DNA of 35,260 bases from the NCBI GenBank assembly GCA_016219105.1, contig JACRCI010000046.1:1-35260 (forward strand). The letters are read 5' to 3'. The notes below the pieces were generated by a model. The model was not told the origin of the DNA. It did no database searches and worked only from the letters and a program-made list of their open reading frames with translations. Of the stretch, positions 131-35,260 are shown piece by piece. Source of the stretch: Deltaproteobacteria bacterium (GTDB taxonomy: Bacteria; Desulfobacterota; GWC2-55-46; DRQE01). The translations under genes were made by a program, and so were the position numbers. Each line of letters opens with the position of its first letter. Positions within the stretch are counted from its first letter, which is position 1.

Positions 131-1516
131 ATGCAGCTTACCGGACTTCTCTGGGGACAGAGGCTTTTAAAGAAGGTCGAGTTCCCGGTCGCCGAGGTGC
201 TCGGACCCGAGGCCACGGTTGACGAGATAAAGGCCCTCATAAAGAAATGCGCCGGGGTGTTCGTAAAACCCGTCTTCAAGGGCGGCGTGGGCAAAAAAGG
301 CAAGGCGGGACTCATAGGCAGGGCGTCCGACATAAACGAGGCCCTAAGACACAAGGAAAGGCTCTATTTCGTCGAACACCGTTTCAGCAACTCCACTGCC
401 AAGGCCGACGGGGTTACGTTCGAGGGGCTCGTCCCGGCCCAGCACGAGGTCTACTTCTCGATTGCCGATTCAACCGTATACCGCGCCCCCACCATGACCA
501 TAACCCACCACGGAGGGGTGGACATAGAGGAACTCCCCAAGGACAAGATACAGGAAGTCCCCTTCGACCCGCTGACCGGGCTTAAAAGCTACCACGTATC
601 CAACGCGCTCGAGGAACTCGGCGCGCCCAAGGAGATTATAAGCCCGCTCGTGCAGAACCTTCCCAGGCTCTGGACGCTTTATAACAACTACGGCATGAGC
701 ATGCTTGAGCTCAACCCCATAAGGATGATGCCCGGGGCGCAGGACAGGCTCACGCCGGTCGCGTGCGATTTCAAGGGTTCGTTCGACCAGGACGACCCGG
801 CCTGGAAAAGGCTCGATCTGCCGGCCCATATATTCGCGTCCGACTATTCCGAGTTCGAGCAGGAGATAAACCAACTCAGGACCTATCAGGGGCAGAGCGA
901 CGTGTTCATCATCAACCCGCACGGCACCATAACCGCCCCGACCTTCGGCGGAGGCGCCAACGCCCTCGTCACGGAACTGCTCGGCGAGAGCGCCACCATA
1001 TCGTCGGACTTCGGCGGAAACCCCCCGTACGAAAAGATGTTCCAGATATCGCGGATAGTGTTCAAATACTGGCTCAGGCAGTCCAACGTCCTTTTTATAA
1101 TAGGCGGCAAGGCCAATAACACCGACATATACGAGACCTTCAGGGCCATGGCCGACGCCCTCAGGAACTTTTTCCAGACCAACGGCCCCACCCCTCTGTT
1201 CGTCGTCATAGGCAGGGGAGGTCCTAACCTCGTAAGGGGCATGGCCTACATGAAGGACACCCTCGATCAACTGAAGCTTCCCTACCGCATCTTCGGCCAT
1301 GACAGCGCCATGAGCGAGGTCGTGAACTACGCACTGAAGATTGACGGGTGGATGGAGAGGGAGGGTAGAAGCCTTATCTCTAAAAGGTTTTCATCCCCCG
1401 GCGCCGAAGGCCTGGTCACGGCGGCCCCGGAGGCAAACCGCAAGGCGACTACTTCTCGCGTGAAAGGCGGCCGTAAGGCTGAAGGACGCGGACCCCGCCG
1501 CGGGGCGACAACGTAA
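131..1516 (+). CDS. aclB: ATP-citrate lyase small/ATP-grasp (citrate-binding) subunit
   Basis: 461 aa; ATP-grasp-like N-terminus (VFVKPVFKGGVGKKGKAGL...), MLELNPIR, FGGGANALVTELLG, VVIGRGGPNLVRGM; RBS-like gagggagg upstream; adjacent to the large subunit. Confidence 0.85.
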   Translation: MQLTGLLWGQRLLKKVEFPVAEVLGPEATVDEIKALIKKCAGVFVKPVFKGGVGKKGKAGLIGRASDINEALRHKERLYFVEHRFSNSTAKADGVTFEGLVPAQHEVYFSIADSTVYRAPTMTITHHGGVDIEELPKDKIQEVPFDPLTGLKSYHVSNALEELGAPKEIISPLVQNLPRLWTLYNNYGMSMLELNPIRMMPGAQDRLTPVACDFKGSFDQDDPAWKRLDLPAHIFASDYSEFEQEINQLRTYQGQSDVFIINPHGTITAPTFGGGANALVTELLGESATISSDFGGNPPYEKMFQISRIVFKYWLRQSNVLFIIGGKANNTDIYETFRAMADALRNFFQTNGPTPLFVVIGRGGPNLVRGMAYMKDTLDQLKLPYRIFGHDSAMSEVVNYALKIDGWMEREGRSLISKRFSSPGAEGLVTAAPEANRKATTSRVKGGRKAEGRGPRRGATT

Positions 1517-1545
1517 AAAGAACGAAGGGACCAACGTGAGGGATT

Positions 1546-4263
1546 ATGCACAAAGAAGGCGTTAAAAAATTCAACTACTACGTCGGCGTCAATTCCCTGG
1601 AGAATGTCGCGACCAGGGAAGACAGGGTCTGCGTCCTGAACATACTCGGCACCGAAAGCCGGACCGTCACCCCGGTAAGCCATGAATTTTCCGGCGGGAA
1701 CGTCGTTTTCGGGACAGGCCCCGGAAGGAGCGGGCAGAGCCTTCCGACGAAGCTCGGCGGCATACCGGTTTTCAACTCCATAAAAGAGGGCCTCGACAAA
1801 GGGCACCCGTTCAACACGGCCGTCATCTATCTGCCCCCCTCAGGGGTGAGGGACGGGGTAGCCGAGGCCGTGAAGTTCAACCCGAAACTGAAAAAGGTCG
1901 TGATACTGACCGAGAAGGTTCCGATAGGCGACTCCCGGATCATAAGGGCCATCTGCCAGACAAACGGCGTGGACGTCTTCGGCGCCAACTGTCTCGGGGT
2001 GGCGGACGCGTGGAACAGGGTCAGGATAGGCGGGGCGCTCGGGGGCAGCAAGCCCGACGAATCACTCGTAAAGGGTTCCATAGCAATATTCTCCAATTCC
2101 GGAAATTTTACCACTACCATAGCCGTTTACCTCCTTACGAGCGGATGGGGCACCACCACGAGCGTATCCAGCGGAAAGGACGTCTACATACAGTTCGCGC
2201 CGGCGGAGTTTTTCAACGCGCTGGAGAAGGACGGGAGAAGCAAGGGCGCCGTCATATACGTTGAGCCGGGCGGTTACTACGAACGCGGCCTCAATATCAC
2301 CAAACCCACGGTCGCGTGCGTTGTCGGGAGATGGAAGGCGCGCCTTACCAAGGCGTGCGGACACGCCGGCAGCCTTGCCGGAAGCGGCGACGACGCCAGG
2401 GCCAAGGAGAAGTGGTTCATGGATTATTTCGGCGTGGACGGCATATACACGCCCGAGAGGCCCGTTTTCTCCAAGAAGGGCGCGGTGGTGACCAACATCG
2501 CGCACATACCAGAGGCGCTTTCGAAGGTCATGGAACTCGGCGGCGTGGAGCCGGACTTCGAGCCCAAAGGCGACCTTTCCCTTAAATGCTGGCTCGCGAA
2601 CAACGCCGGTATCAGCCTGCCCAAGGCGCTCGACGTAAAGCAGGTTCTGGCGGTCGCTCCCTATGGCGAGCAGATAGAGACGGTCTTAAAACAGGTCGGC
2701 GCCCAGTACCCGCGTCAGCCCATGAAGGACTGTAGCGGCGCCTCCATGATGGATCCCGCGACGCAGGTAACGCGGATATACGACGTTTCGATACTCGACG
2801 CATCAAAACGCACGCTGGAGGAAAACCTCGTCCTGTCGCTTCTTAAAAGCTATCCGGACCCTTACGGGAGAAAACTCGCGAACCTCGCGTTTAACGCCTT
2901 TGTAAACCACCACGACGACCCGGCGCTCATGGCCGCCGCGGCAAGCAGGGAGGCCGAGAATTCGCCGAACACCGTCGTCGCCGCCGCGGTCTCGATAATA
3001 GGAAAGGGCAGGGTTAAGAAGTCGCTGGAGGTATCGAGACTGCTGCTCGGAAAATTCCAACACTCGGGACTGGTAAACCCGACTTCCGGTTTTAATTATT
3101 CGGCGATACTTAAGTCCCTTACAAAGGACGAAAAGGCGCTCTTTGCCGGCGCGGGAGCGGACGGCGCGGCCAGGGCGAGCATCATGATCGCCGAGCTAAG
3201 CTCCTTGAAGAAAGAGTCGGTATTCATAAACTTCGTAAGGGACGCATCCGGAGGGAAACCCTCGGTGGACGCCGTCCTTTCCGCGATATGGACGACACTC
3301 GGATGGGAAGGCCTCCTCAAGAAGGACATCTCGCGGTGGACGCTTATGACGCTCCCGTGGTATTCGAGGGTGTTTTCAACCATCGTGGGCTGTTCCGTGC
3401 CCACTGACAGGCACACCAGGAAAGGGTTCTGCGGGGTTGACACCGCGGAGATATTAAAGGACTGGTCGTTTACCGAGACCGCGTTCCTCGCCCTGGTGGG
3501 CCGCCGTCCGGCGGCGGCTGAGCTGTTTGAGTTCTCCATGCTCCTGGGCCTCATCATATCCAACGGCCCCGGGACTATCTCCGCGCAGGGGGCCAAGGGA
3601 GGGGTGAGCGCGGACGGACCGGAAAGCCCGATGAGGGTGCAGATAAACAAATCCTTCGTAGGCTTTTTAACCCATACCGGTTTCGCGCACGGCGGCAACG
3701 GCTATGAGGCCATAGCCTTCCTCATCGAGAGGTTCAAGGATAGCGGGCTTAAAGACCCGGGCAACAAAAACCACTCCATTGATCTTAAGGCCATAGCCGA
3801 CGCGTATTCACGGCACTACAGTAAATATAAGGCCGAGCAGAAATCCATCGGGAACCTCGAATACGCCAAGATCCCATGCTTAAACCATCCGATATTCAAG
3901 GGCAGGCCCGTGAACTACGACCCAAGGGAGAGGTTCATCAGCTCCACGTTCGAGGAGAGGGGGATATACAACGTCTTCCTCGACTTCTACGGAAGGCTCG
4001 TCAACTCGCTTTTCCAGGCCAAGGTCACCCCCAACGTCTACTGCGTCAACGTGGACGCCGTGATAGCGGTGATACTCCTTAAGATACTGTGGCAGCCCTT
4101 CCATAAGGGGACAATATCGGAAAGGGAGATGGAGGACTCGGCGTTCACGACGTTCCTTTTCGGAAGGATGATAGGCTCGGCCTCGGAGATAGACGACCAT
4201 ATAAACCGCGGCCGCGACATGGACACGAGGACTCCCGCGAGCAAGTGCCTGTACGTGCGCTGA
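1546..4263 (+). CDS. aclA: ATP-citrate lyase large subunit (CoA-binding + citrate-synthase-like), elongated/divergent
   Basis: 905 aa; succinyl-CoA-synthetase-like core with GHAGS phosphohistidine motif (His273), C-terminal citrate-synthase-like region (GFCGVDTAEIL, SNGPGT, HGGNG, CLNHPIF, NVDA). Confidence 0.8.
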   Translation: MHKEGVKKFNYYVGVNSLENVATREDRVCVLNILGTESRTVTPVSHEFSGGNVVFGTGPGRSGQSLPTKLGGIPVFNSIKEGLDKGHPFNTAVIYLPPSGVRDGVAEAVKFNPKLKKVVILTEKVPIGDSRIIRAICQTNGVDVFGANCLGVADAWNRVRIGGALGGSKPDESLVKGSIAIFSNSGNFTTTIAVYLLTSGWGTTTSVSSGKDVYIQFAPAEFFNALEKDGRSKGAVIYVEPGGYYERGLNITKPTVACVVGRWKARLTKACGHAGSLAGSGDDARAKEKWFMDYFGVDGIYTPERPVFSKKGAVVTNIAHIPEALSKVMELGGVEPDFEPKGDLSLKCWLANNAGISLPKALDVKQVLAVAPYGEQIETVLKQVGAQYPRQPMKDCSGASMMDPATQVTRIYDVSILDASKRTLEENLVLSLLKSYPDPYGRKLANLAFNAFVNHHDDPALMAAAASREAENSPNTVVAAAVSIIGKGRVKKSLEVSRLLLGKFQHSGLVNPTSGFNYSAILKSLTKDEKALFAGAGADGAARASIMIAELSSLKKESVFINFVRDASGGKPSVDAVLSAIWTTLGWEGLLKKDISRWTLMTLPWYSRVFSTIVGCSVPTDRHTRKGFCGVDTAEILKDWSFTETAFLALVGRRPAAAELFEFSMLLGLIISNGPGTISAQGAKGGVSADGPESPMRVQINKSFVGFLTHTGFAHGGNGYEAIAFLIERFKDSGLKDPGNKNHSIDLKAIADAYSRHYSKYKAEQKSIGNLEYAKIPCLNHPIFKGRPVNYDPRERFISSTFEERGIYNVFLDFYGRLVNSLFQAKVTPNVYCVNVDAVIAVILLKILWQPFHKGTISEREMEDSAFTTFLFGRMIGSASEIDDHINRGRDMDTRTPASKCLYVR

Positions 4264-4323: not shown

Positions 4324-4433
4324 TTTGACAAGGGTTTTTGCGCCTGTTATAAAGTTGTCATCATGTTTTTTAGCGTCCGACGTGGCCGGCTGGTTGGCCG
4401 TCGCGTCTATCTGGCTGGAAGGAGGGGTGTCAA

Positions 4434-5162
4434 TTGAAACAATCAAGCTCTACCGGCGAGAAGAAGTTGTTTTTATTGGTGGTTATTTTGCTGATAGTCG
4501 GCGGGGGCGTGCTTCTTTTTTATCTTTTCAAGGCAGGCAAGACCCCCCGGTCCGGCGAACATAAAATAGTATCCGCGAGGGTTAAGATAGAGACCGTCAT
4601 GGAAACTACCGGGGTTCCGACCACCACTCCGTCCGTGACGACCAACACTCCGTCCGTGACGACCAACACTCCGTCCTCGACGGCCAACCAGCCGTCCTCG
4701 ACGGCGGTGAAGCCCGTTGTGGAGGAAAAACCGTCTAAGAGGCCTTTGGTCAAGCCGTCCGAAAAACCTGTTACGAAGGCCGCGGAAAAACCTGCGGATA
4801 AAGCAGTCGCGAAACCCGTTGAAAAGACGATCAAACAGACCGCACAGGCCAGGACGACCTCGACGGCCGGCACTCCGGCCAAAAAACCCGTCCGTTATAA
4901 GCCGTGGGCCGTGCACATAGCGTCGGTCGCGAGCAAGAAGGAGGCCGCGGAGCTTAAAAGCGCCGTCGCCGGAAAGGGCTATAAAGTCTATGTGACCGAC
5001 TTCAACAAAGAGGGGCTTAAATGGTACAGGGTCAGGGTCGGTTTCTACTCAACGCGCAAAGACGCGCAGAAGGCCGCCTCAAGCCTCGCAAAACAGTTTG
5101 AGAACATAGACGCATGGCCGGTCATGCCGTCCAAAGACGAGGTACGCAGGCACATGAATTAG
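4434..5162 (+). CDS. SPOR-domain membrane protein with Thr/Pro/Ser repeat linker
   Basis: N-terminal TM (LFLLVVILLIVGGGVLLFYLF), TPSVTTN-type repeats, C-terminal SPOR-like YKPWAVHIASVASKKEAAELKSAVAGKGYKVYV...WYRVRVGFYSTRKDAQ; TTG start preceded by ggaaggagg. Confidence 0.8.
   Translation: MKQSSSTGEKKLFLLVVILLIVGGGVLLFYLFKAGKTPRSGEHKIVSARVKIETVMETTGVPTTTPSVTTNTPSVTTNTPSSTANQPSSTAVKPVVEEKPSKRPLVKPSEKPVTKAAEKPADKAVAKPVEKTIKQTAQARTTSTAGTPAKKPVRYKPWAVHIASVASKKEAAELKSAVAGKGYKVYVTDFNKEGLKWYRVRVGFYSTRKDAQKAASSLAKQFENIDAWPVMPSKDEVRRHMN
4623..4706 (+). repeat. Tandem 21-bp repeat, 4 units, inside the SPOR gene
   Basis: accactccgtccgtgacgacc / aacactccgtccgtgacgacc / aacactccgtcctcgacggcc / aaccagccgtcctcgacggcg. 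Confidence 0.9.
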
Positions 5163-5200
5163 CTTGACCTGACCGTGGTTCTACCCTTAAAATATTGCTT

Positions 5201-6694
5201 ATGGAGGACGCGGTTTATCAGCCAACCAGCCTTGACGGCCAACCAGCCGTCTACGACGGCCAACCAACCGGCCCTGCCGGCAAAGAAAAATACGTATTTA
5301 TCGAGACGTTCGGCTGCCAGATGAACGACAATGACTCCATGAGGATGCTCGCTCATCTCAAGGACTCGAAATACCTTCCCACCGACGAGCCTGCGAGCGC
5401 CGACCTCATACTGATCAACACATGCAGCATCCGCGACAAGGCGGAACAGAAATTCTACAGCGCCGCCGGCAAGTATAGGGAGCTCAAGGAGAAAAACCCA
5501 TCGCTTATCATAGGCATAAGCGGATGCGTGGCGCAGCAGGCGGGAGCGGGGCTACTCAAAAGAATCCCATACGTTGACATGGTCATCGGGACGCACAACG
5601 TGCACAATGTCCCCGAACTCGTCGAGGAGATATCCGACCGTCGTGGACGGCTGGCAGGCCGGCCGGATGAAAAGATATCCAGGACAGAATTTCGTGACAC
5701 TATAGGGCCAGGCGAATATGCTGCTTACGGATTGCCTTACGGCGGCGGGGTAAAGGCCTCGGTGAGCATAATGCGCGGCTGCGATAATTTCTGCACCTAC
5801 TGCATCGTGCCGTCAGTAAGGGGAAAAGAGGCGTCGAGGCCGTGCGAAGACATCCTCGACGACGTAAAAAGGCTCGCTGACCAGGGGGTAAAGGAGATTA
5901 CCCTTCTGGGACAGAACGTAAACTCATACCGGCCAACCAGCCGTTCTCAACGGCCAGACGGGCCTGCCGTGACGTTCCCGGGGCTTTTAAGGCTGGTATG
6001 CGCGGTGGACCCTATCGAGAGGGTGAGGTTCGTGACATCGCACCCGAAGGATATGTCCACGGAGCTTATTTATCTCTTCGGTGAAGAGGCAAAAAAGCTA
6101 TCGAGGAACGTGCACCTGCCGCTTCAATCAGGCTCCGACAGCGTCCTTGGGCGCATGAAAAGGGGCTATACGGTCGCCGGGTACCTTTCAAAGGTCGCCC
6201 TTTTAAGGAGGCTCTATCCGGACATCTCGATTACGACCGATATAATAGCCGGTTTCCCCGGCGAGAGCGGGGAGGATTTCGAAAAGACCGTTACAGTCCT
6301 GAGGGAAGTGGAATTCGACGGCGTATTTTCGTTCAAGTATTCGCCGAGGCCGAATACCGCGGCTGCGGGGTTTTCCGATCAGGTCCCGGCCGAGGTAGCC
6401 CAGGAAAGGCTCCTCAGGATACAGGAAATACAGAAAGGCATAACCGCCAAGAAGATGAAAGCGCTTGTCGGCAGAAACATGGATGTCCTCGTGGAGGGAG
6501 AGAGCAACCGTCAGGGACGGCTGGATGGCCGTCAGGGCCGTCCAACCGACTGTCAGGGCCGTCCAACCGAGATGACCGGAAGGACCCCGTGCAACAGGGT
6601 CGTGAATTTCCCCGGCCCGCGCGAGCGTGTCGGCGCCATAGTCGGCGTCCTCATAACAGGGGCGTGTTCAAACTCTCTAAGGGGGATTCAATGA
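5201..6694 (+). CDS. miaB: tRNA-2-methylthio-N6-dimethylallyladenosine synthase MiaB
   Basis: YVFIETFGCQMN, radical SAM CDNFCTYC, EITLLGQNVNSY, HLPLQSGSDSVL, IAGFPGESGEDFEKT, TRAM-like C-terminus NRVVNFPG. ORF opens at TTG 5195; ATG 5201 chosen. Confidence 0.93.
   Translation: MEDAVYQPTSLDGQPAVYDGQPTGPAGKEKYVFIETFGCQMNDNDSMRMLAHLKDSKYLPTDEPASADLILINTCSIRDKAEQKFYSAAGKYRELKEKNPSLIIGISGCVAQQAGAGLLKRIPYVDMVIGTHNVHNVPELVEEISDRRGRLAGRPDEKISRTEFRDTIGPGEYAAYGLPYGGGVKASVSIMRGCDNFCTYCIVPSVRGKEASRPCEDILDDVKRLADQGVKEITLLGQNVNSYRPTSRSQRPDGPAVTFPGLLRLVCAVDPIERVRFVTSHPKDMSTELIYLFGEEAKKLSRNVHLPLQSGSDSVLGRMKRGYTVAGYLSKVALLRRLYPDISITTDIIAGFPGESGEDFEKTVTVLREVEFDGVFSFKYSPRPNTAAAGFSDQVPAEVAQERLLRIQEIQKGITAKKMKALVGRNMDVLVEGESNRQGRLDGRQGRPTDCQGRPTEMTGRTPCNRVVNFPGPRERVGAIVGVLITGACSNSLRGIQ
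5221..5280 (-). repeat. Dispersed 21-nt-unit repeat, multi-unit copy at the miaB 5' end
   Basis: gccaaccagccttgacggccaaccagccgtctacgacggccaaccaaccggccctgccgg. Confidence 0.85.
5638..5666 (+). repeat. Dispersed repeat copy inside miaB
   Basis: CCGTCGTGGACGGCTGGCAGGCCGGCCGG; 24/25 nt identical to the copy in hypD (30158-30182, reverse complement). Confidence 0.85.
5929..5970 (-). repeat. Dispersed repeat copy inside miaB
   Basis: ccggccaaccagccgttctcaacggccagacgggcctgccgt. Confidence 0.8.
6505..6569 (+). repeat. Dispersed repeat, tandem copy inside miaB (21-nt period)
   Basis: GTCAGGGCCGTCCAACCG occurs exactly at 6531-6548 and 6552-6569; preceded by ACCGTCAGGGACGGCTGGATGGCC. Confidence 0.85.
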
Positions 6695-9918: not shown

Positions 9919-10565
9919 TAGACTTTCATGTCCACACGCTTTTTTCGGATGGCTCGCTCATACCGTCCGAACTCGTGGCGAGGGCGAAGGACTTAAGCTA
10001 CATCGCCTTTGCCATAACCGACCATGCCGATGGATCGAACGTCGAAGAGGTCCTTAAAAAGACCGTCAGGTTCGTCGAGACCATGGACCCCGACTGCGGC
10101 CTCACCGTCGTGGCCGGGGTCGAGCTTACGCATATCCATCCAAAGGGCATAGCCGGGCTTACCAGGGAGGCACGGAACCTGGGCGCCAGGGTCGTGGTAT
10201 GCCACGGAGAGACTATCACCGAGCCGGTTTGCGCCGGGACGAACCGTGCCGCCATAGAGGCGGGGGTTGACGTGCTGGCGCACCCTGGATTGGTGGGCGA
10301 GGCGGAGGCACGGCTTGCCGCCGAAAGAGGAGTGCTTTTTGAGATAACGACCCGCAAGGGACACAGTCTTACCAACGGGCACGTTGCCGCCATGGCAAAA
10401 AGGTTCGGCGTGGAGCTGATCCTCAACACTGATACCCATTCGCCGGAAGACCTCGTAACCGCGGATTACGCCCGCAGGGTGGCGCTTGGCGCCGGGCTCG
10501 GAGAGGACGACTATGAGAAAATCAAGGATAACGCGCGCAGGCTCCTGCGGAAGGTCTCAGGTTAA
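9915..10565 (+). CDS. PHP-domain phosphoesterase (histidinol-phosphatase-like)
   Basis: MIDFHVHTLFSDGSLIPSELV, AITDHADG, VCHGET, LAHPGLV, LILNTDTHSPEDL; ATGA overlap with upstream gene. Confidence 0.88.
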   Translation: MIDFHVHTLFSDGSLIPSELVARAKDLSYIAFAITDHADGSNVEEVLKKTVRFVETMDPDCGLTVVAGVELTHIHPKGIAGLTREARNLGARVVVCHGETITEPVCAGTNRAAIEAGVDVLAHPGLVGEAEARLAAERGVLFEITTRKGHSLTNGHVAAMAKRFGVELILNTDTHSPEDLVTADYARRVALGAGLGEDDYEKIKDNARRLLRKVSG

Positions 10566-11802
10566 AAAAAGGGTCTTTTTGTTTTTGCTTTCCCTCGTCC
10601 TTATCGCCTGCGCGGGCGCCCAGGCCGCGGACAATACCGCTTTTTCAGACCGGTCATGGGGCACCCACCTGCACGACGCGGAGAGGACCAACTCCGCGCC
10701 CGGCGCGCTTACGCTCCCCCCGGCGCGGGAGTGGACCAAAAGCATCGCCTCGGTTTTCAGCCTTTTCAGGGTCAGGCCTCAGGCGGAATTCGTAACCTCC
10801 CCGGCGGTTTACAAAGGCTCAATCTATGTCGGCTCCAAAGATGGCCGGTTCTACGCCTTTGACCTCGACTCAGGCAAGGACATGTGGAAGTTCAAGCCCG
10901 CCTCCGGGGTGGACGGCCCCGCCACCGCATCGGAGGGCATGGTCTGTTTCGGCTCCATCGAAGGGGTTCTCTACTGCGTTCAGAGGGAGAGCGGACGGGA
11001 GATCTGGCGGTTCAAGGCACGGTCGGAGATAACGTCCTCGCCCGTAATAGCCGACGAAAGGGTCTATTTCTCGTCCTCCGACGACCGCGTCTACGCGCTC
11101 GATAAATCCGCCGGCGAGAAGATATGGACCTACACGCATAATTCGGCGAGCTACGTCGCCTCCCGCCTTGACGCCTCGCCGGCGGTATGGGGCGGCAGGC
11201 TCTACGTCATGTTCAACGACGGCTGGCTCGTATGCCTCGATAGTCGAACCGGCGCCGAGGTCTGGAAAAAAGACGTGTTGAACGGGAACATGCTTACCCT
11301 CCGGGGGCGCAGGACCCCGTACCTTTATGAAGGGCTTGTCTACGTCATTGACGATAAGGGCTGGGTGATAGCCCTTGACGCGGTAAGCGGCGAGGAAAAG
11401 GCGCGTTACGACATCGTAAGGGCCGTTGACTTCATCGTGACGAAAAAGGACATATACATCGCCGGTCATGAACTCCTTGTGGCCCTCGGCCGCCCATCCG
11501 GCCGCATCTCATGGACGGCCGAACTCTCCCACGGAGAGCCGTACTCCATGGCCTTCTCAGAGGGCCATATCTTCGTCCTTTCAAATTTCGCCAGCACGCC
11601 GTTCGATATCCGTTTCCTCGAGAGAGACCACGGCTACATCGCCGCGTATACCGCCGATGGAGGCGCGCAGACCTGGGGGGTTAAACTCAGGGAAACGGTG
11701 CACTCCTCCGTTGCGCTGGCCTCCAACCACATAGCCCTCGTGACGACTAACGGGGTCCTTCATGTCTTCGGAACGGCCAACACTCCGGCCTCGACGGACT
11801 GA
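10513..11802 (+). CDS. PQQ-type beta-propeller repeat protein, signal peptide/possible lipoprotein
   Basis: Repeated YVGSKDGRFYAFDLDSGKDMWKF, VCFGSIEGVLYCVQRESGREIWRF, VYFSSSDDRVYALDKSAGEKIWTY; N-terminal VFLFLLSLVLIAC. Start uncertain. Confidence 0.8.
   Translation: MRKSRITRAGSCGRSQVKKRVFLFLLSLVLIACAGAQAADNTAFSDRSWGTHLHDAERTNSAPGALTLPPAREWTKSIASVFSLFRVRPQAEFVTSPAVYKGSIYVGSKDGRFYAFDLDSGKDMWKFKPASGVDGPATASEGMVCFGSIEGVLYCVQRESGREIWRFKARSEITSSPVIADERVYFSSSDDRVYALDKSAGEKIWTYTHNSASYVASRLDASPAVWGGRLYVMFNDGWLVCLDSRTGAEVWKKDVLNGNMLTLRGRRTPYLYEGLVYVIDDKGWVIALDAVSGEEKARYDIVRAVDFIVTKKDIYIAGHELLVALGRPSGRISWTAELSHGEPYSMAFSEGHIFVLSNFASTPFDIRFLERDHGYIAAYTADGGAQTWGVKLRETVHSSVALASNHIALVTTNGVLHVFGTANTPASTD
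11773..11798 (-). repeat. Dispersed repeat copy at the 3' end of the PQQ gene
   Basis: acggccaacactccggcctcgacgga encodes the terminal TANTPASTD. Confidence 0.65.
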
Positions 11803-14074: not shown

Positions 14075-16852
14075 ATGGATAAGGTCATGGAAAAAGTGAC
14101 TCCGGCGATGAGGCAGTACCTTGAGATAAAGGCCAAAAATAAGGACGCCATAGTCTTCTTCAGGATGGGAGACTTCTACGAGATGTTTTTTGAAGACGCG
14201 AAACTCGCGGCGGCAATCCTCGGTATAGCCCTTACCTCAAGGGATAGGCAGCGTAAAATCCCCATGTGCGGGGTTCCTTACCACGCCGCTTCTCAATACG
14301 TGGCCAGGCTCGTGAAGGATGGCTACAGGGTCGCGATATGCGAGCAGATGGAAGACCCTGAGGACGCCGACGGGGTGGTGGACAGGGCGGTCGTGAGGAT
14401 AATAACGCCCGGGGTGGCGCTTGAGGACGAACTCCTGGATGCAAAGACGAATAACTACGTGGCCGCCGTATCGTTTGGCGCGGGGGGAAAGACGGCCCGC
14501 CTGTACGGACTTTCTTTCATGGACGCGACAACCGGCGAGTTCAGGGTCGCGGAATTTACCTCCCTCGCCGCGCTTAAAGACGAGATACGAAGGATAGCCC
14601 CGGCGGAACTGCTGCTCCCTGAGGGAGAATCATTGAACGGCAGGGGCGCGCCCGCGGCGTCCGAGACTGAGCTGCAGGTAAAAAACACAAGATATTTAAG
14701 CGGGTTCGAGTTAAGATATGATAGTTCGCTTGAACTTATGCTCAGCCACTTTAACACGCTCTCGCTTGACGGTTTCGGCCTGAGCGGGTTCAGTGAGGGG
14801 ATCAAGGCCGCCGGAGCGCTTCTAAGCTACGTTAAGGGAACCCGGAAGGCCGACCTCGGCCACGTAAGAAAGTGCGTCCCTCATTACCCGGATGACTTTC
14901 TCGTCATGGACCATACGACGAGGAGGAACCTCGAACTGCTCGAAAACGCAAGGACGCTTACAAAGGAAGGCAGTCTCTTTGACCTGCTCGACAGGACGCG
15001 CACTCCGATGGGAGGGAGGCAGCTCAGGCAGTGGCTCCTCTACCCGCTGCGCGACGTTTCAGGTATAGAAGACCGGCTTGCCGGCGTTGCCGACCTCTTG
15101 GAGGACAGATTGATGCGCGGCGAAGTTGAGAAGGAACTGGCCGGCATATACGACCTCGAAAGACTTGCCGGCAAGGTGGCGGTCGGGATAGCCGGGCCAA
15201 GGGACCTCATATCCCTCAAGGAATCGCTTAAAAAGGTCGGTATGGTCAAAAGTATACTTGGGGCGATCCTTGGGGGAATTCCCAAGGGGTTCAAGTCTCC
15301 CGTTCTAAGCCGCATCTCGTCCTCCCTTGATTGCGTGAGCGAGGTCATAGGGCTTATAGAGGAGTCTATAAACGATACCCCGCCGCTTAAGGTGATGGAC
15401 GGAGGTTACATAAAAAAAGGTTATTCAAAGGAGCTTGACGAGTTGAGGGATATCGGCCGCCACGGCAAGGATTGGATTGCCGGATTGGAGGCAAGCGAGA
15501 GGCAGAGGACCGGCATATCCACGCTCAAGGTGAGCTACAACAGGGTATTCGGCTATTACATAGAGTGCACGAAGGCTAATCTCAAAAACGTCCCTCCCGA
15601 CTACACGAGGAAGCAGACCCTCGTCGGGGCAGAGAGGTTCGTAACGCCGGAGTTGAAGGAGTGGGAGTCACGGATACTCTCGGCCGAGGATACGGCGAAG
15701 GCGCTCGAGGCGGCCCTCGTCGAGGGCATAATGAAGGATACGGCGAGGCACGTGGAAAGGATACAGTCGAGCGCGGCGCTCGTGGCCGCCCTCGACGTGC
15801 TGGCATCGTTCGCCGACGTGGCCGAGGATATGAACTACGTAAGGCCCGAGGTGCGTGACGGCGAAGCGATTATAATAGAAGACGGCAGACACCCGGTGAT
15901 AGAGAAGGATTTTCCGGGGGGCGGTTTTGTGCCGAACGACCTGAGGCTCGACCGCGGGGAAGACCAGATAATCATACTTACCGGGCCGAATATGGCCGGC
16001 AAGTCAACCTACATAAGGCAGGCCGGGCTTACGGTCGTCATGGCGCAGGCCGGCTCGTTCGTGCCCGCTAAAAAGGCGATAATAGGGGTCGTGGACAGGG
16101 TCTTTACGAGGGTAGGGGCCTCGGACGACATCGCAAGGGGGCAGAGCACTTTCATGGTCGAGATGAACGAGACCGCCAACATCCTCAATAACGCCACGCC
16201 GAGAAGCCTCATAATCCTCGATGAGATAGGCCGCGGCACCTCGACGTTCGACGGGTTGAGCATCGCGTGGGCCGTGGCCGAGTACATACACGACAGCCCG
16301 GCTCTCGGCGCGCGGACGCTTTTCGCCACGCATTACCACGAGCTGACCGACCTATCCTTGACAAAGGAAAGGGTCAAAAATTATAATATGGTTGTAAAGG
16401 AAAGCGGCGGCAAGGTAATATTCTTGAGGAAGGTTCTGCCCGGAGGGGCGAGCCGCAGCTACGGCATACAGGTGGCCCGGCTCGCGGGCCTGCCGATGCC
16501 CGTGATAGAGAGAGCCTCGGAGGTGCTCGGCAACCTCGAAAAAGGGGAACTGAACGAGGCCGGGCTGCCGCGGATAGCCGGCCGTCATGGCCGGATGAAC
16601 CCCGGCCAAATGAACCCCGGGTTGAAAAACTCCGCGGATACCGGCGGCGCGGCATCCGGCCGGTTAGACGTCCTCGACAAGGGGCAGCCCGGCCTCCCGT
16701 GCCTTTTCGGCCCATCAGCCGGCCCAGCCGGCCAGCACTCCGTCCTCGACGGAAGGATCAGGAAACTTCTGACGGAACTCGATGTGAACGGCATTACCCC
16801 GGTAGAGGCGCTTAACATTCTGAACAAGCTTAAAGGGATGCTCGACGAATAA
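14075..16852 (+). CDS. mutS: DNA mismatch repair protein MutS
   Basis: FFRMGDFYEMFFEDA; GPNMAGKSTYIRQ Walker A; LIILDEIGRGTSTFDGLSIAWA; FATHYHELTDL. Confidence 0.97.
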   Translation: MDKVMEKVTPAMRQYLEIKAKNKDAIVFFRMGDFYEMFFEDAKLAAAILGIALTSRDRQRKIPMCGVPYHAASQYVARLVKDGYRVAICEQMEDPEDADGVVDRAVVRIITPGVALEDELLDAKTNNYVAAVSFGAGGKTARLYGLSFMDATTGEFRVAEFTSLAALKDEIRRIAPAELLLPEGESLNGRGAPAASETELQVKNTRYLSGFELRYDSSLELMLSHFNTLSLDGFGLSGFSEGIKAAGALLSYVKGTRKADLGHVRKCVPHYPDDFLVMDHTTRRNLELLENARTLTKEGSLFDLLDRTRTPMGGRQLRQWLLYPLRDVSGIEDRLAGVADLLEDRLMRGEVEKELAGIYDLERLAGKVAVGIAGPRDLISLKESLKKVGMVKSILGAILGGIPKGFKSPVLSRISSSLDCVSEVIGLIEESINDTPPLKVMDGGYIKKGYSKELDELRDIGRHGKDWIAGLEASERQRTGISTLKVSYNRVFGYYIECTKANLKNVPPDYTRKQTLVGAERFVTPELKEWESRILSAEDTAKALEAALVEGIMKDTARHVERIQSSAALVAALDVLASFADVAEDMNYVRPEVRDGEAIIIEDGRHPVIEKDFPGGGFVPNDLRLDRGEDQIIILTGPNMAGKSTYIRQAGLTVVMAQAGSFVPAKKAIIGVVDRVFTRVGASDDIARGQSTFMVEMNETANILNNATPRSLIILDEIGRGTSTFDGLSIAWAVAEYIHDSPALGARTLFATHYHELTDLSLTKERVKNYNMVVKESGGKVIFLRKVLPGGASRSYGIQVARLAGLPMPVIERASEVLGNLEKGELNEAGLPRIAGRHGRMNPGQMNPGLKNSADTGGAASGRLDVLDKGQPGLPCLFGPSAGPAGQHSVLDGRIRKLLTELDVNGITPVEALNILNKLKGMLDE
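16577..16621 (+). repeat. Dispersed repeat-like copy plus direct repeat (ATGAACCCCGG x2) in the mutS C-terminal linker
   Basis: GCCGGCCGTCATGGCCGG followed by ATGAACCCCGG at 16595 and 16611; encodes GRHGRMNPGQMNPG. Confidence 0.6.
16709..16753 (-). repeat. Dispersed repeat copy in the mutS C-terminal linker
   Basis: ggcccatcagccggcccagccggccagcactccgtcctcgacgga. Confidence 0.75.
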
Positions 16853-23978: not shown

Positions 23979-24911
23979 CTAAATCACGTCGAGGGACGTG
24001 ATTTCTTTTCCGATCATGATCTTTTTAAGCTTGTTCAAAGCCCTTGTCTCTATCTGGCGTATCCTCTCCCGCGTAACGCCGAACCTTTTGCCGATACTGC
24101 CGAGGGTTTCTCTATCGCCATCAAGCCCGAATCTCAGGGTTACGACCTTCCTCTCGGTCGAGTCGAGGAGGGCCAGCCACTCCTTGAGCCTCCCTGCCCT
24201 GTCCTCCCTGCTCATTAGTTCCATCGGCTCGGGGAACTTTTCGTCCTCGAGCCTGTCGAGGAGGGTTTCGTCGGTATCCTCGTTAAGCGTTGAATCCATC
24301 GAGCAGACCCTTCGCCTGACGGTGGTGAGCTTTTTGATATACCTGCCGCTCACCCCCATACTCGCCGAAATCTCGGATGTCGTCGGCTCCCTCTTGAGCT
24401 TCCTGTCAAGTTCGACCGAGATTTTGACCATCCTCGATATGTCGTTTGCGACGTGGATGGGCACCCTCACGACCGCCGCCTGGTTAAGGACGGCCCTTTC
24501 CACCGCCTGCCGTATCCAGTACGTGGCGTATGTGGAAAACCTGCAACCCTTTGAGCTCCTGAACTTCTCTACCGACCGTATAAGCCCTATATTGCCCTCT
24601 TCTATGAGGTCCTGCAGCGGCAGACCCCTTCCGGCATACCTCTTTGCGATGCTTATGACAAGGCGCAGGTTCGCCTCTATCATCTTGGCGCGGGCCATTG
24701 CGTCGCCGCGAGCAACCATCAGCGAAAGGGCGTTTTCCTCACTGGAACTGAGGAGGGGATGCTTCCTTACGTTATCGAAGTAGAGTTTTATCGAATCCCT
24801 GAAAGCCGCTGTCGAGGACGGCTGGTGGGCCGTTGCGCCGGGCCCGCTCCGGGAGGACGATAACCCTTCGGTGGCACTTTCACGCGGACCCTTTTCTGAC
24901 TGTGTCCCCAT
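23979..24911 (-). CDS. rpoS: RpoS-type sigma-70 family sigma factor
   Basis: [86 protein letters not shown]; adjacent to an nlpD-like gene. Start at MGTQSEKG. Confidence 0.88.
24806..24833 (+). repeat. Dispersed repeat copy in the rpoS 5' coding region
   Basis: CCGCTGTCGAGGACGGCTGGTGGGCCGT; reverse complement 26/28 identical to 4680-4707 in the SPOR gene. Confidence 0.85.
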
Positions 24912-25026
24912 ATAAAATTTCCTTAAAAAAACACTCGATTGGCTTTTCAAGGGATACGGGAAGTCTTCGGGGATGAAAAGGTTCAATGGATGACCGCAAC
25001 GTATTGTTTATACTACAAAAAAGGAA

Positions 25027-27114: not shown

Positions 27115-27981
27115 TCAGAATTTCCAGTGCTGAAGTCCGCTCACCGCCGAATAGTTCGTCATGTCGAGGTGCACCGGCGTTATGGATATATAACCCTTCG
27201 CAACCGCGGCGAAATCCGTGTCCTCGCCCCCCTCCCACCTGAGCATGTCCCCGCCTATCCAGTAGTATTTTTTCCCGCGCGGGTCAACCTTTTCGACGAC
27301 GACGTCTCCGAACACGCGTTTACCCTGCCTCGTTATCCTCGCGCCTTTTATCCTGCCCGCCGACGGCACGTTTACGTTCAGGAGCGTGTCCTTCGGCAGT
27401 CCGTTTTCAAGTATGAGCCTTACGAACCTCGCGGCGAACCTCGCGCTGGCCCTGAAATTGAAATTCCTCCGCGCAACGAGCGACACTGCTATGGACGGGA
27501 TACCGAGGAGCGTGCCCTCCATGGCCGCGGACACGGTCCCGGAATAGGTTATGTCCTCTCCGAGATTGCCGCCCATGTTTATGCCGGATACGACTATCGA
27601 GGGCCTCATGGGGAGTATCCCCTTGACCTTGAGCGCCAGCGTTATGCAGTCCGTAGGCGTGCCGTCAATGGCGTATTCGCGAGGGCCTACCCTGTGTACC
27701 CTCAGTGGCCTGTGCAGGGTAAGGGAGTGGCTTGCCGCGCTCCTTTCCCTGTCAGGCGCCACGACGTAGACCTCGCCAAGCTTTTTGAGCGCCGAGGCGA
27801 TGGCCTTTATCCCCGGGCTGCGTATGCCGTCGTCGTTTGAAACGAGGATTACGTGCTTTTTCCCGCCTTGAGTTTTCTTCCTGCCGACCATAACTGTTCC
27901 TGCCAACAATACTGTTCCTGCCAACAATACTGTTCCTGCCAAGAATACTGTTCCTGCTGATAATAACGGGTCAAAAGTCAA
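27115..27981 (-). CDS. surE: 5'-nucleotidase SurE (ORF includes a repeat-encoded N-terminal extension; conservative start ATG at 27891)
   Basis: VILVSNDDGIRSPGI, VVAPDRERSAASHSLT, IDGTPTDCI, VSGINMGGNLGEDITYSGTVSAAMEG. Confidence 0.93.
   Translation of the reverse strand: MTFDPLLSAGTVFLAGTVLLAGTVLLAGTVMVGRKKTQGGKKHVILVSNDDGIRSPGIKAIASALKKLGEVYVVAPDRERSAASHSLTLHRPLRVHRVGPREYAIDGTPTDCITLALKVKGILPMRPSIVVSGINMGGNLGEDITYSGTVSAAMEGTLLGIPSIAVSLVARRNFNFRASARFAARFVRLILENGLPKDTLLNVNVPSAGRIKGARITRQGKRVFGDVVVEKVDPRGKKYYWIGGDMLRWEGGEDTDFAAVAKGYISITPVHLDMTNYSAVSGLQHWKF
27890..27961 (-). repeat. 18-bp tandem repeat, 4 units, at the surE 5' end
   Basis: ATAACTGTTCCTGCCAAC / AATACTGTTCCTGCCAAC / AATACTGTTCCTGCCAAG / AATACTGTTCCTGCTGAT. 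Confidence 0.95.
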
Positions 27982-28139: not shown

Positions 28140-29141
28140 TCAGCATATCCTCGGCAACTGCTCGCCGGACAACTTTTCCACTATTCTCCGGTTCCCCATG
28201 GCCGTTGTGAGGATGACCTTCTTTTTCGGCCCTTCGGCCGCGTATCCGATTATCGCGGCGTTGCGTCCGAGGGGGTTTTTCCTCATCGCGGCCAATATCT
28301 CGTCTGTGCCCTGTCGCTCAGCCACAAGGACGAGTTTCCCCTCGTTGGCGAGGTACAGGGGATCGAAACCGAGTATCTCGCAAGCCCCCCTTACCTCGTC
28401 CCTTACCGGGATGAGCGTTTCGACGATGTGCATCGAGCAGTCCGCGGTATCCGCGAATTCGTTCAACACGGTCGCCAGGCCGCCCCTTGTGGGGTCCCTC
28501 ATCGCCTTTACCCCGGCCCCGGTCGAAAGTATGTCGGCGGCAAGGATATGGAGCGGGGCGCAGTCGCTTTCAACCGGTATCTCAAGCCCCCCTCTTTTGG
28601 TGAGTATCGCCATGCCGTGGTCGCCCACTGTGCCGGAAATGATTATCGCATCCCCCGGCCTTATGAAAGAGGGAGAGAGTTCTACCCCGTCCCTTACAAC
28701 CCCTATGCCCGAGGTGTTTATAAAGACAGTGTCCCCTTTTCCCCTCTCAACCACCTTGGTGTCGCCGGTCACTATCCTGACCCCGCACTCGCGGGCCGTC
28801 TTTGCCATGGAGCCGGCTATCCTTCTTATGTCGTCGAGCGGCGCGCCTTCCTCTATTATGAAAGAGGCGCTCATGTAGACCGGCAAAGCCCCTCCCACGG
28901 CGAGGTCGTTTACCGTGCCGCACACGGCGAGTTTCCCGATATCGCCGCCCGGGAAAAATATCGGGCTGATGACGTAGGAATCGGTCGTAAACGCGAGCAT
29001 CGCCCCGGGGCTTAAAAAAACGGCCTGGTCGTCCATCCGGGCCAGCAGCGCGTCATCGAACGATTTTACGAAGACCTCCTCTATGAGGCTGTGGCTTAAT
29101 TTGCCTCCGGAGCCGTGCGCTAAAAGTATGCGGTCCTCCAT
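28140..29141 (-). CDS. hypE: Hydrogenase maturation protein HypE
   Basis: ILLAHGSGGKLSHSLIEEVF, DSYVISPIFFPGGDIGKLAVCGTVNDLAVGGA, RDPTRGGLATVLNE, C-terminal PRIC; start overlaps hypD stop. Confidence 0.96.
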   Translation of the reverse strand: MEDRILLAHGSGGKLSHSLIEEVFVKSFDDALLARMDDQAVFLSPGAMLAFTTDSYVISPIFFPGGDIGKLAVCGTVNDLAVGGALPVYMSASFIIEEGAPLDDIRRIAGSMAKTARECGVRIVTGDTKVVERGKGDTVFINTSGIGVVRDGVELSPSFIRPGDAIIISGTVGDHGMAILTKRGGLEIPVESDCAPLHILAADILSTGAGVKAMRDPTRGGLATVLNEFADTADCSMHIVETLIPVRDEVRGACEILGFDPLYLANEGKLVLVAERQGTDEILAAMRKNPLGRNAAIIGYAAEGPKKKVILTTAMGNRRIVEKLSGEQLPRIC

Positions 29142-30259
29142 CACACCCTCTCGTACCTGTAATACGCGGCGCACGTGCCTTCGCTCGATACCATGCACGG
29201 GCCCTGCGGAGCGTCCGGCCTGCACGCCTTTTGAAAAAGCGGACATTCCGGCGGCGTTATAAGCCCCTTCAACACCTTGCCGCAGGCGCATCCATGCGCC
29301 TCTTCCACTACGCACCCATCGTAGCCTATGTCGAACCTCTTTTCCGCGTCGAACGCGGCGAATCCCTCCCGTATCTTCAGCCCGCTCCCCGGTATCACCC
29401 CTATCCCCCTCCACATGGCGTCGGCCTCGGTAAAGACGTCGTTTAAGACGGCCTGCGCCTTTCTGTTACCCTCCCACGTCACGACCCTTTTATACTGTAT
29501 CTCTATGTCGCGTCGCGCCTCGCTGAGCTGTTTTACGAGCATCCACAGGCCCGCGAGCGCGTCGAGCGGCTCGAAACCCGCCACAACGCACGGCAGTCCG
29601 TATTCTTCCGAGAGAAAGCCGTAGGCCCGCGCCCCTATGACCGCGGTCACGTGCCCCGGCGCTATGAAGCCGTCAATATTGATGTCTCCGGCGTCCACGA
29701 GCGCCCTCATGGCCGGAGGGGTGAGTTTGTGGAGGGAAAGGACGGAGAGATTTTTTACGCCTTTACGCCGGGCCTCGACGATTGTCGCCGCAACCGTCGG
29801 GGCGGTGGTCTCGAAGCCGACAGAATAGAACATGACCTCTTTTGACGGGTTAGCGGCCGCGATATCGAGGCAATCGAGCGGCGAATAGACGACCCGTATC
29901 TCGGCCCCCTCCGCCCTTTCCCTTTCAAGCGATGAAAAACTCCCGGGCACCCTCAGCATATCTCCGAATGTGGCGACTATCGCCTTTTTTTCTCTCCTTA
30001 CGAAATGTATGAGCCGGTCTATGTCCGGCTGCGAGGTAACGCATACCGGGCATCCCGGGCCCGAGATAAGCCTTATGTTTTGCGGCATGGCCGCCCTTAT
30101 GCCGTATCTGGATATGGAGTGGGTATGCGTGCCGCATATCTCCATTATCCCGATCTCCCGGCCTGCCAGCCGTCCTCGACGGCCTGCCGAGAGGGTCTTT
30201 ATGGCCTCGACCATGGCCGCTGCCGGAGCGGGGCGCCTGAATTCGTCCATGTATTTCAT
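29141..30259 (-). CDS. hypD: Hydrogenase maturation protein HypD
   Basis: IMEICGTHTHSISRYGI, GPGCPVCVTSQPDID, VGFETTAPT, CVVAGFEPLD, HGCACGKVLKG. Confidence 0.96.
   Translation of the reverse strand: MKYMDEFRRPAPAAAMVEAIKTLSAGRRGRLAGREIGIMEICGTHTHSISRYGIRAAMPQNIRLISGPGCPVCVTSQPDIDRLIHFVRREKKAIVATFGDMLRVPGSFSSLERERAEGAEIRVVYSPLDCLDIAAANPSKEVMFYSVGFETTAPTVAATIVEARRKGVKNLSVLSLHKLTPPAMRALVDAGDINIDGFIAPGHVTAVIGARAYGFLSEEYGLPCVVAGFEPLDALAGLWMLVKQLSEARRDIEIQYKRVVTWEGNRKAQAVLNDVFTEADAMWRGIGVIPGSGLKIREGFAAFDAEKRFDIGYDGCVVEEAHGCACGKVLKGLITPPECPLFQKACRPDAPQGPCMVSSEGTCAAYYRYERV
30158..30190 (-). repeat. Dispersed repeat copy inside hypD
   Basis: Reverse complement CTCGGCAGGCCGTCGAGGACGGCTGGCAGGCCGG; encodes AGRRGRLAGR. 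Confidence 0.85.
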
Positions 30260-30483
30260 GCCGTATCCCGCCCCCCGGCGAACCCGTCGAGAAACCGGAT
30301 TGTCTCCTGCGCGGCGTCCTCGTCGAGCGTCTGTATCGCGAACCCGGCGTGCACTATAACATACGAATCCAGCTTCGCGCCTTCGAGGAGGGCAAGGCTC
30401 ACCTCCCTTTTCGTGCCGCCCACGTCCACCTTCGCCCACTCGCCTTTTATTTCAATTATCTTTCCCGGAACTCCGAGGCACAT
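30256..30483 (-). CDS. hypC: Hydrogenase assembly chaperone HypC
   Basis: MCLGVPGKIIEIKGEWAKVDVGGTKREVSLALL...YVIVHAGFAIQTLDEDAAQETI. Confidence 0.96.
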   Translation of the reverse strand: MCLGVPGKIIEIKGEWAKVDVGGTKREVSLALLEGAKLDSYVIVHAGFAIQTLDEDAAQETIRFLDGFAGGRDTA

Positions 30484-35134: not shown

Positions 35135-35260
35135 TGATTAATTCTCTTTTTGTCATTGCGAGCCGCGTTTTTGCGGCGAAGCAATCTCGTAACTCACTGA
35201 TTTGCCTATAGGACGAGATTGCTTCGCTACGCTCGCAATGACGGGACTGGGAATTAATCA
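35135..35260. repeat. Inverted-repeat (MITE-like/palindromic) element at the window end
   Basis: 10-bp termini TGATTAATTC/GAATTAATCA; inner arms GTCATTGCGAG...CGAAGCAATCTCGT (35152-35190) pair with ACGAGATTGCTTCG...CTCGCAATGAC (35213-35242). Confidence 0.88.

Follow-up and report, generated by a model that had tools for sequence, protein, structure and literature searches.

The hairpin ends of the IS200/IS605 insertion sequences act as single strands, and these elements insert beside a short target without duplicating it. REPs, described in a GTAG and a CGTC type, are small, high-copy palindromic hairpins with a short tail that occur singly or in groups; they are mostly intergenic, yet in several species they are found inside genes, repair genes included (PMC3733652). 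The CGTC REPs have a CGTC end, a stem of 8-9 bp in which A-T pairs come first, a loop of 4-5 nt and a CCA tail, and lack a dedicated transposase (PMC3733652). Rickettsia palindromic elements (RPEs), which are ~150 bp long, are dispersed repeats that enter unrelated genes without breaking the frame and are translated with them; the first report listed 44 insertions in metabolic genes (review PMC10969869, citing Ogata 2000 and 2002). In cyanobacteria, SDR5 is characterized as a very small mobile repeat that inserts into HIP1 sites (PMC4390886, citing Elhai 2008).

The window analyzed here, the whole stretch of 35,260 nucleotides, contains a miaB gene in the open frame 5195-6694 (plus strand, stop included), which starts at TTG 5195 or ATG 5201. 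The product scores above the NCBIfam equivalog cut-off (TIGR01574, 482 bits vs 355) and contains Pfam matches to UPF0004 (residues 34-132), Radical_SAM (190-366) and TRAM (455-497); by the equivalog score and the Fe-S and radical SAM cysteines, it is a member of the MiaB family. The initial annotation had recognized four repeat-derived segments in this protein. All four are present and each matches the repeat at the DNA level, a match that is far beyond chance. The interval given for them, 5221-6569, lies inside the miaB frame, as proposed, and has to be corrected at its start, which is one base out of frame. The protein was aligned with 29 orthologues belonging to its family and order (30 proteins in all). 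All four inserts are unique to this MiaB, and the repeat has no match in eight genomes of relatives from the same family, which bears out the earlier view that a dispersed repeat was inserted in a lineage-specific manner; a search of the same 29 orthologues for the inserted residues in relatives free of the repeat found no such case. The cysteines of the GCQMN, NTCS, SGCVAQ and GCDNFCTYC motifs are all preserved, in line with the earlier statement that the Fe-S and radical SAM motifs are untouched.

By the alignment of the 29 orthologues, site 1 adds ~20 residues at the N-terminus, site 2 adds 8-9 (residues 148-156), site 3 adds 8-10 and site 4 adds 16 in all between VEG.S and GRT, where about 15 had been estimated. 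The array at site 1 has to be translated: the sole start codons upstream of the conserved domain are the two named above, and none occurs between the array and that domain. Sites 1, 2 and 4 lie outside the Pfam domain matches, and site 3 falls within the radical SAM domain, at a variable loop the length of which varies naturally. The solved MiaB structure (PDB chain 7mjz) aligns to residues 28-497 and has no large TRAM-proximal insert. Location of the inserts in tolerant surface loops, as originally suggested, is indirectly supported by the domain boundaries and the natural length variation; a single-sequence structure model of the protein (pLDDT 39) was too poor for exposure mapping. The coordinates of these sites and of other copies in the window are listed in the table.

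Table. Copies of the 21-bp repeat located in the window
Feature	Positions	Strand	Remarks
Intergenic unit upstream of 4434	4377..4399	-	
Array in upstream gene 4434-5162	4640..4704	+	three units, read as TNTPSSTANQPSSTA
miaB site 1	5216..5280	+	array at the N-terminus: two clear units and one degenerate 21-bp unit
miaB site 2	5638..5660	-	single unit, read as RRGRLAGRP, between UPF0004 and radical SAM
miaB site 3	5930..5954	+	single unit, read as RPTSRSQR, after QNVNSY
miaB site 4	6508..6530	-	canonical unit before TRAM
miaB site 4, continuation	6527..6568	+	two tandem 21-bp copies of a divergent unit (repeat D7, spacing 21)
Unit at the C-terminal end of gene 10486-11802	11775..11797	+	
mutS (14075-16852), single unit near the C-terminus	16658..16680	+	net insertion of 9 residues
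mutS, two-unit array near the C-terminus	16709..16752	+	net insertion of 10 residues
Sigma-70 family factor (23979-24986, -), N-terminal part	24809..24831	-	read as TAHQPSST
hypD (29141-30439, -), N-terminal part	30160..30182	+	read as GRRGRLAGR

Repeat discovery connected the four miaB segments to further copies within the window, and the phenomenon, going beyond the initial annotation, is genome-wide, the inserted unit being a defined 21-bp hairpin module. The figures for the whole genome given here are pattern counts, and the unit statistics come from a 386-kb sample. In the 1.87-Mb genome, a 15-mer taken from the repeat has 226 occurrences (at most one mismatch), compared to none for the reversed pattern. 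In the sample, a weight matrix detects 218 units, split equally between the strands (106 and 112), vs 14 in the reversed control, and 113 units match the consensus at 17 or more of the 21 positions, vs none in that control. The units are found in all 21 sampled stretches, which are similar in GC content. Extrapolation from the sample suggests roughly 1000 units per genome, an estimate that is perhaps somewhat high because the sampled contigs were picked for length and repeat matches. A strict pattern is found at 369 places in this genome, in none of eight genomes of the same family, and at most 12 times in any of ~300 genomes from the phylum. Of 58 relatives, 57 lack the 15-mer and the remaining one has a single copy. 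A scan of GTDB genomes yielded only four single matches in unrelated bacteria, which we take to be chance matches, and the virus contigs searched for the repeat contained no copies. In one deeply sampled relative from the same family (G006), the most common repeats are unrelated to the 21-bp unit; that genome has a separate repeat containing ACCAATGTCTGCGCACAACTCAC, with ~10 copies in 1.1 Mb.

Within the sample, the units form 164 arrays scattered on both strands, of which 121 are single units. Called genes, predicted with our own simple codon-usage method rather than a published gene finder, contain 115 of these arrays (~70%) compared to 141 expected at random, which amounts to a mild excess between genes; 69 of the 327 sampled genes (21%) carry at least one array. 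Several of the affected genes are usually needed for growth. Besides miaB, the repeat is found in mutS, mutS2, trmD (two sites, of 14 and 20 residues), der (two sites), hypD and the genes for IF-2, protoporphyrinogen oxidase and a sigma factor. The densest gene found encodes a transglutaminase-like (TgpA) protein of 777 residues (L058:3271-5604), with at least 8 arrays in both orientations.

The conserved core, delineated from 79 clean copies, comprises 23 bp with sharp ends, GG-CCAACCAGCCGKCCHYGMC-GG; the GG of the left flank is conserved in only 63-68%, and no clear target duplication longer than GG was detected in these copies. The unit (consensus GGCCAACCAGCCGKCCHYGMCGG) consists of an 8-nt tail, CCAACCAG or a variant of it, and, in the right half, a hairpin, CCGKC-CHY-GMCGG, with a 5-bp stem and a 3-nt loop. 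The fourth stem pair (13-19) alternates between T-A and G-C; it shows Watson-Crick pairing in 137 of the 164 distinct copies, compared to 77 +/- 6 in shuffled sets, and covaries more strongly than any other pair of the unit (z 27.7). In our counting, covariation of the stem exceeded all 500 shuffles and all slid controls. The stem is kept by compensatory changes, and one of these, C-G to T-A in the fifth pair (CCGTT/AACGG), is seen at site 3 of miaB. A second hairpin across the unit borders (GACGGC...GCCGTC) was considered as a conserved feature and rejected for lack of covariation at its variable pair. All six frames of the unit are open, which is not special: the same holds for 46% of units after shuffling and for 25% of 21-mers from the genome.

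Insertion was assessed by comparing each repeat-bearing gene with its best homologue in ~1.1 Mb of the relative G006, mostly an orthologue and in some cases, MiaB included, a paralogue (for MiaB, the proper test is the alignment of the 29 orthologues). The ends of the insertions were derived from the protein alignments and flank conservation. A net insertion of at least 5 residues was found at 33 of the 42 repeats located inside alignments, vs 6.7% of control windows, and the median net insertion was 7.5 residues for single units, 14 for doubles and 33 for the only triple, indicating that one unit adds ~21 bp. About 8 of 34 single-unit matches have no accompanying insertion and probably arose by chance. 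In IF-2 and some other proteins, the repeats fall outside the aligned part or give no net insertion, so not every match to the repeat is proven to be an insertion.

Inside genes, the repeat is read in frame and, judging from the open frames, adds blocks of ~7 residues to the proteins. In the translated comparison with one relative, no frame change was detected at the elements (none of 17 frame-shifted pairs coincides with one). The choice of the reading frame is non-random (p = 5e-7), with the arginine-rich frames being the rarest, as expected of selection on the peptide. Taken together, these observations make it likely that the miaB segments stem from a 21-bp repeat specific to this genome, copies of which insert as whole units in either orientation, inside genes as well as between them.

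Nearly all neighboring units in the sample are exactly 21 bp apart, head-to-tail. The same period is observed between genes (21 of 23 spacings), and hence belongs to the element and does not only reflect selection for the frame. Head-to-tail arrays of a fixed period, along with the two similar 21-bp copies at site 4 of miaB, could alternatively signify that insertion of single units is rare and that the arrays, and with them the peptide length, expand by replication slippage, in the manner of in-frame minisatellites. This seems unlikely, considering that 121 of the 164 arrays are single units dispersed over the genome on both strands and that adjacent units are as unlike as random ones: they are identical at 15.3 of 21 positions, compared to 15.2 +/- 0.3 in pairs drawn at random, and not one of the 52 adjacent pairs consists of identical units. 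This lack of resemblance argues against slippage and for the independent arrival of each unit, and suggests that the arrays were built by serial independent insertion, although very old duplicated arrays might likewise look unrelated unit by unit.

Another explanation would be that the repeats are binding or uptake sites, similar to DNA uptake sequences, carried into genes by selection at the DNA level. The very high copy number and genome-specific consensus, the constraint on sequence even at variable positions and the mild intergenic excess of the arrays all fit such sites. However, the repeats in coding genes are insertions of ~21 bp rather than native sequence altered by point mutations, and they form tandem arrays; moreover, known uptake sequences are shorter than ~21 bp with a covarying hairpin. 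Accordingly, we regard this explanation as quite improbable. Given that the elements form hairpins and are located in conserved housekeeping genes, it could also be imagined that the inserts are cut out of the transcript as mini-introns or passed over by translational bypass, so that the proteins are normal. The frame is kept at the elements (none of 17 frame-shifted pairs coincides with one), the bias in its choice suggests that the peptide matters, and the MiaB sites avoid the catalytic motifs, all of which render this scenario very improbable. An assembly or binning artefact is hardly conceivable even though the genome is a 137-contig assembly: the units are present in every sampled stretch at a similar GC content, the open frames are intact, and an assembly error cannot produce compensatory changes in the stem.

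As an inserting unit, the 21-bp repeat matches in kind the intragenic REPs and the RPEs as well as the very small mobile repeats known from cyanobacteria; it is set apart by its 21-bp unit, its share within genes, its density and its in-register arrays of unrelated units. It resembles REPs in being a small, high-copy palindromic hairpin with a short tail, single or grouped and found inside genes. Unlike the GTAG REPs, it has no terminal GTAG, as seen in the consensus, and no associated RAYT (Y1) transposase, PF01797 having no match in the 95%-complete genome. Unlike the CGTC REPs, it has a stem of 5 bp mainly of G-C pairs with a loop of 3 nt, and CGTC is found only within the stem. The units are arranged in head-to-tail arrays, in contrast to the head-to-head dimers of REPs, and most of the arrays are in genes whereas REPs are mostly intergenic. 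The in-frame insertion into unrelated genes, translated to judge by the open frames, is shared with the RPEs, from which the repeat differs in length (21 vs ~150 bp) and in the many more copies, several per gene. By description, SDR5 is likewise a very small module and inserts precisely at a short target, to which the GG flanks and sharp ends of the 79 copies here may correspond; also by description, it differs in that the flank here is GG rather than HIP1, the arrays are self-adjacent and the location is mainly intragenic. Of the hallmarks of MITEs, terminal inverted repeats are lacking, the hairpin being at one end only, and no clear target duplication beyond GG was detected in the 79 copies. 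The IS200/IS605 elements are comparable solely as a model of mechanism, the Y1 transposase being undetected in this genome.

The hairpin and the analogy with REPs and IS200/IS605 suggest how the inserting unit might spread. The module would be a small, non-autonomous hairpin element that an enzyme acting in trans mobilizes, possibly in single-stranded form, and a new unit would insert adjoining GG. Each copy ends in GG, so that an existing copy would itself be a target, and successive insertions there would produce arrays in register. As 21 bp preserve the frame, insertions in loops, linkers and termini would survive selection, and the added peptide would be translated as a neutral or slightly costly extension. 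The 95%-complete genome has no matches to the Y1 transposase (PF01797, for which control genomes were positive), the TnpB zinc-ribbon domain (PF07282), the reverse transcriptase (PF00078), DDE_Tnp_1 (PF01609) or the IS110 transposase (PF02371). The mobilizing enzyme may have been lost, may be of another kind or may be encoded in the 5% of the genome that is missing. We tentatively propose, with less than even confidence, that a translated 21-bp mobile unit spreads without a known transposase and targets the ends of its own copies, giving rise to serial arrays, such that about one fifth of the proteins carry its peptide.

The repeat represents a dense natural experiment in which short peptides are inserted into conserved proteins, and the sites reveal loops of MiaB, TrmD, Der, MutS and other proteins that tolerate at least 7 extra residues. 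The case bears on how REP-like and RPE-like repeats can spread when they have no transposase, and the unit-by-unit independence within tandem arrays leads to a specific, testable model, namely, serial insertion at the end of the element itself.

Several other features of the window deserve mention. Additional dispersed palindromic repeats, TGCTGAAATAAATTCAGCATGACA / CCTGAAACAAGTTCAGGGTGACA and TCATTGCGAGC...GAAGCAATCTCGT, occur at 20-80 and 35150-35260 of the window and at L043:16000-18600, and are distinct from the coding 21-bp family. An 18-bp tandem repeat, ACTGTTCCTGCCAACAAT, present in 4-5 copies at 27856-27964, is part of the extension at the N-terminus of a SurE-like frame; it is read as (LAGTVL)n and, within the sample, was found at this locus only. 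Two adjacent frames at 131-4263 encode proteins that we take to be similar to ATP citrate lyase subunits; if true, this would suggest a reductive TCA cycle.
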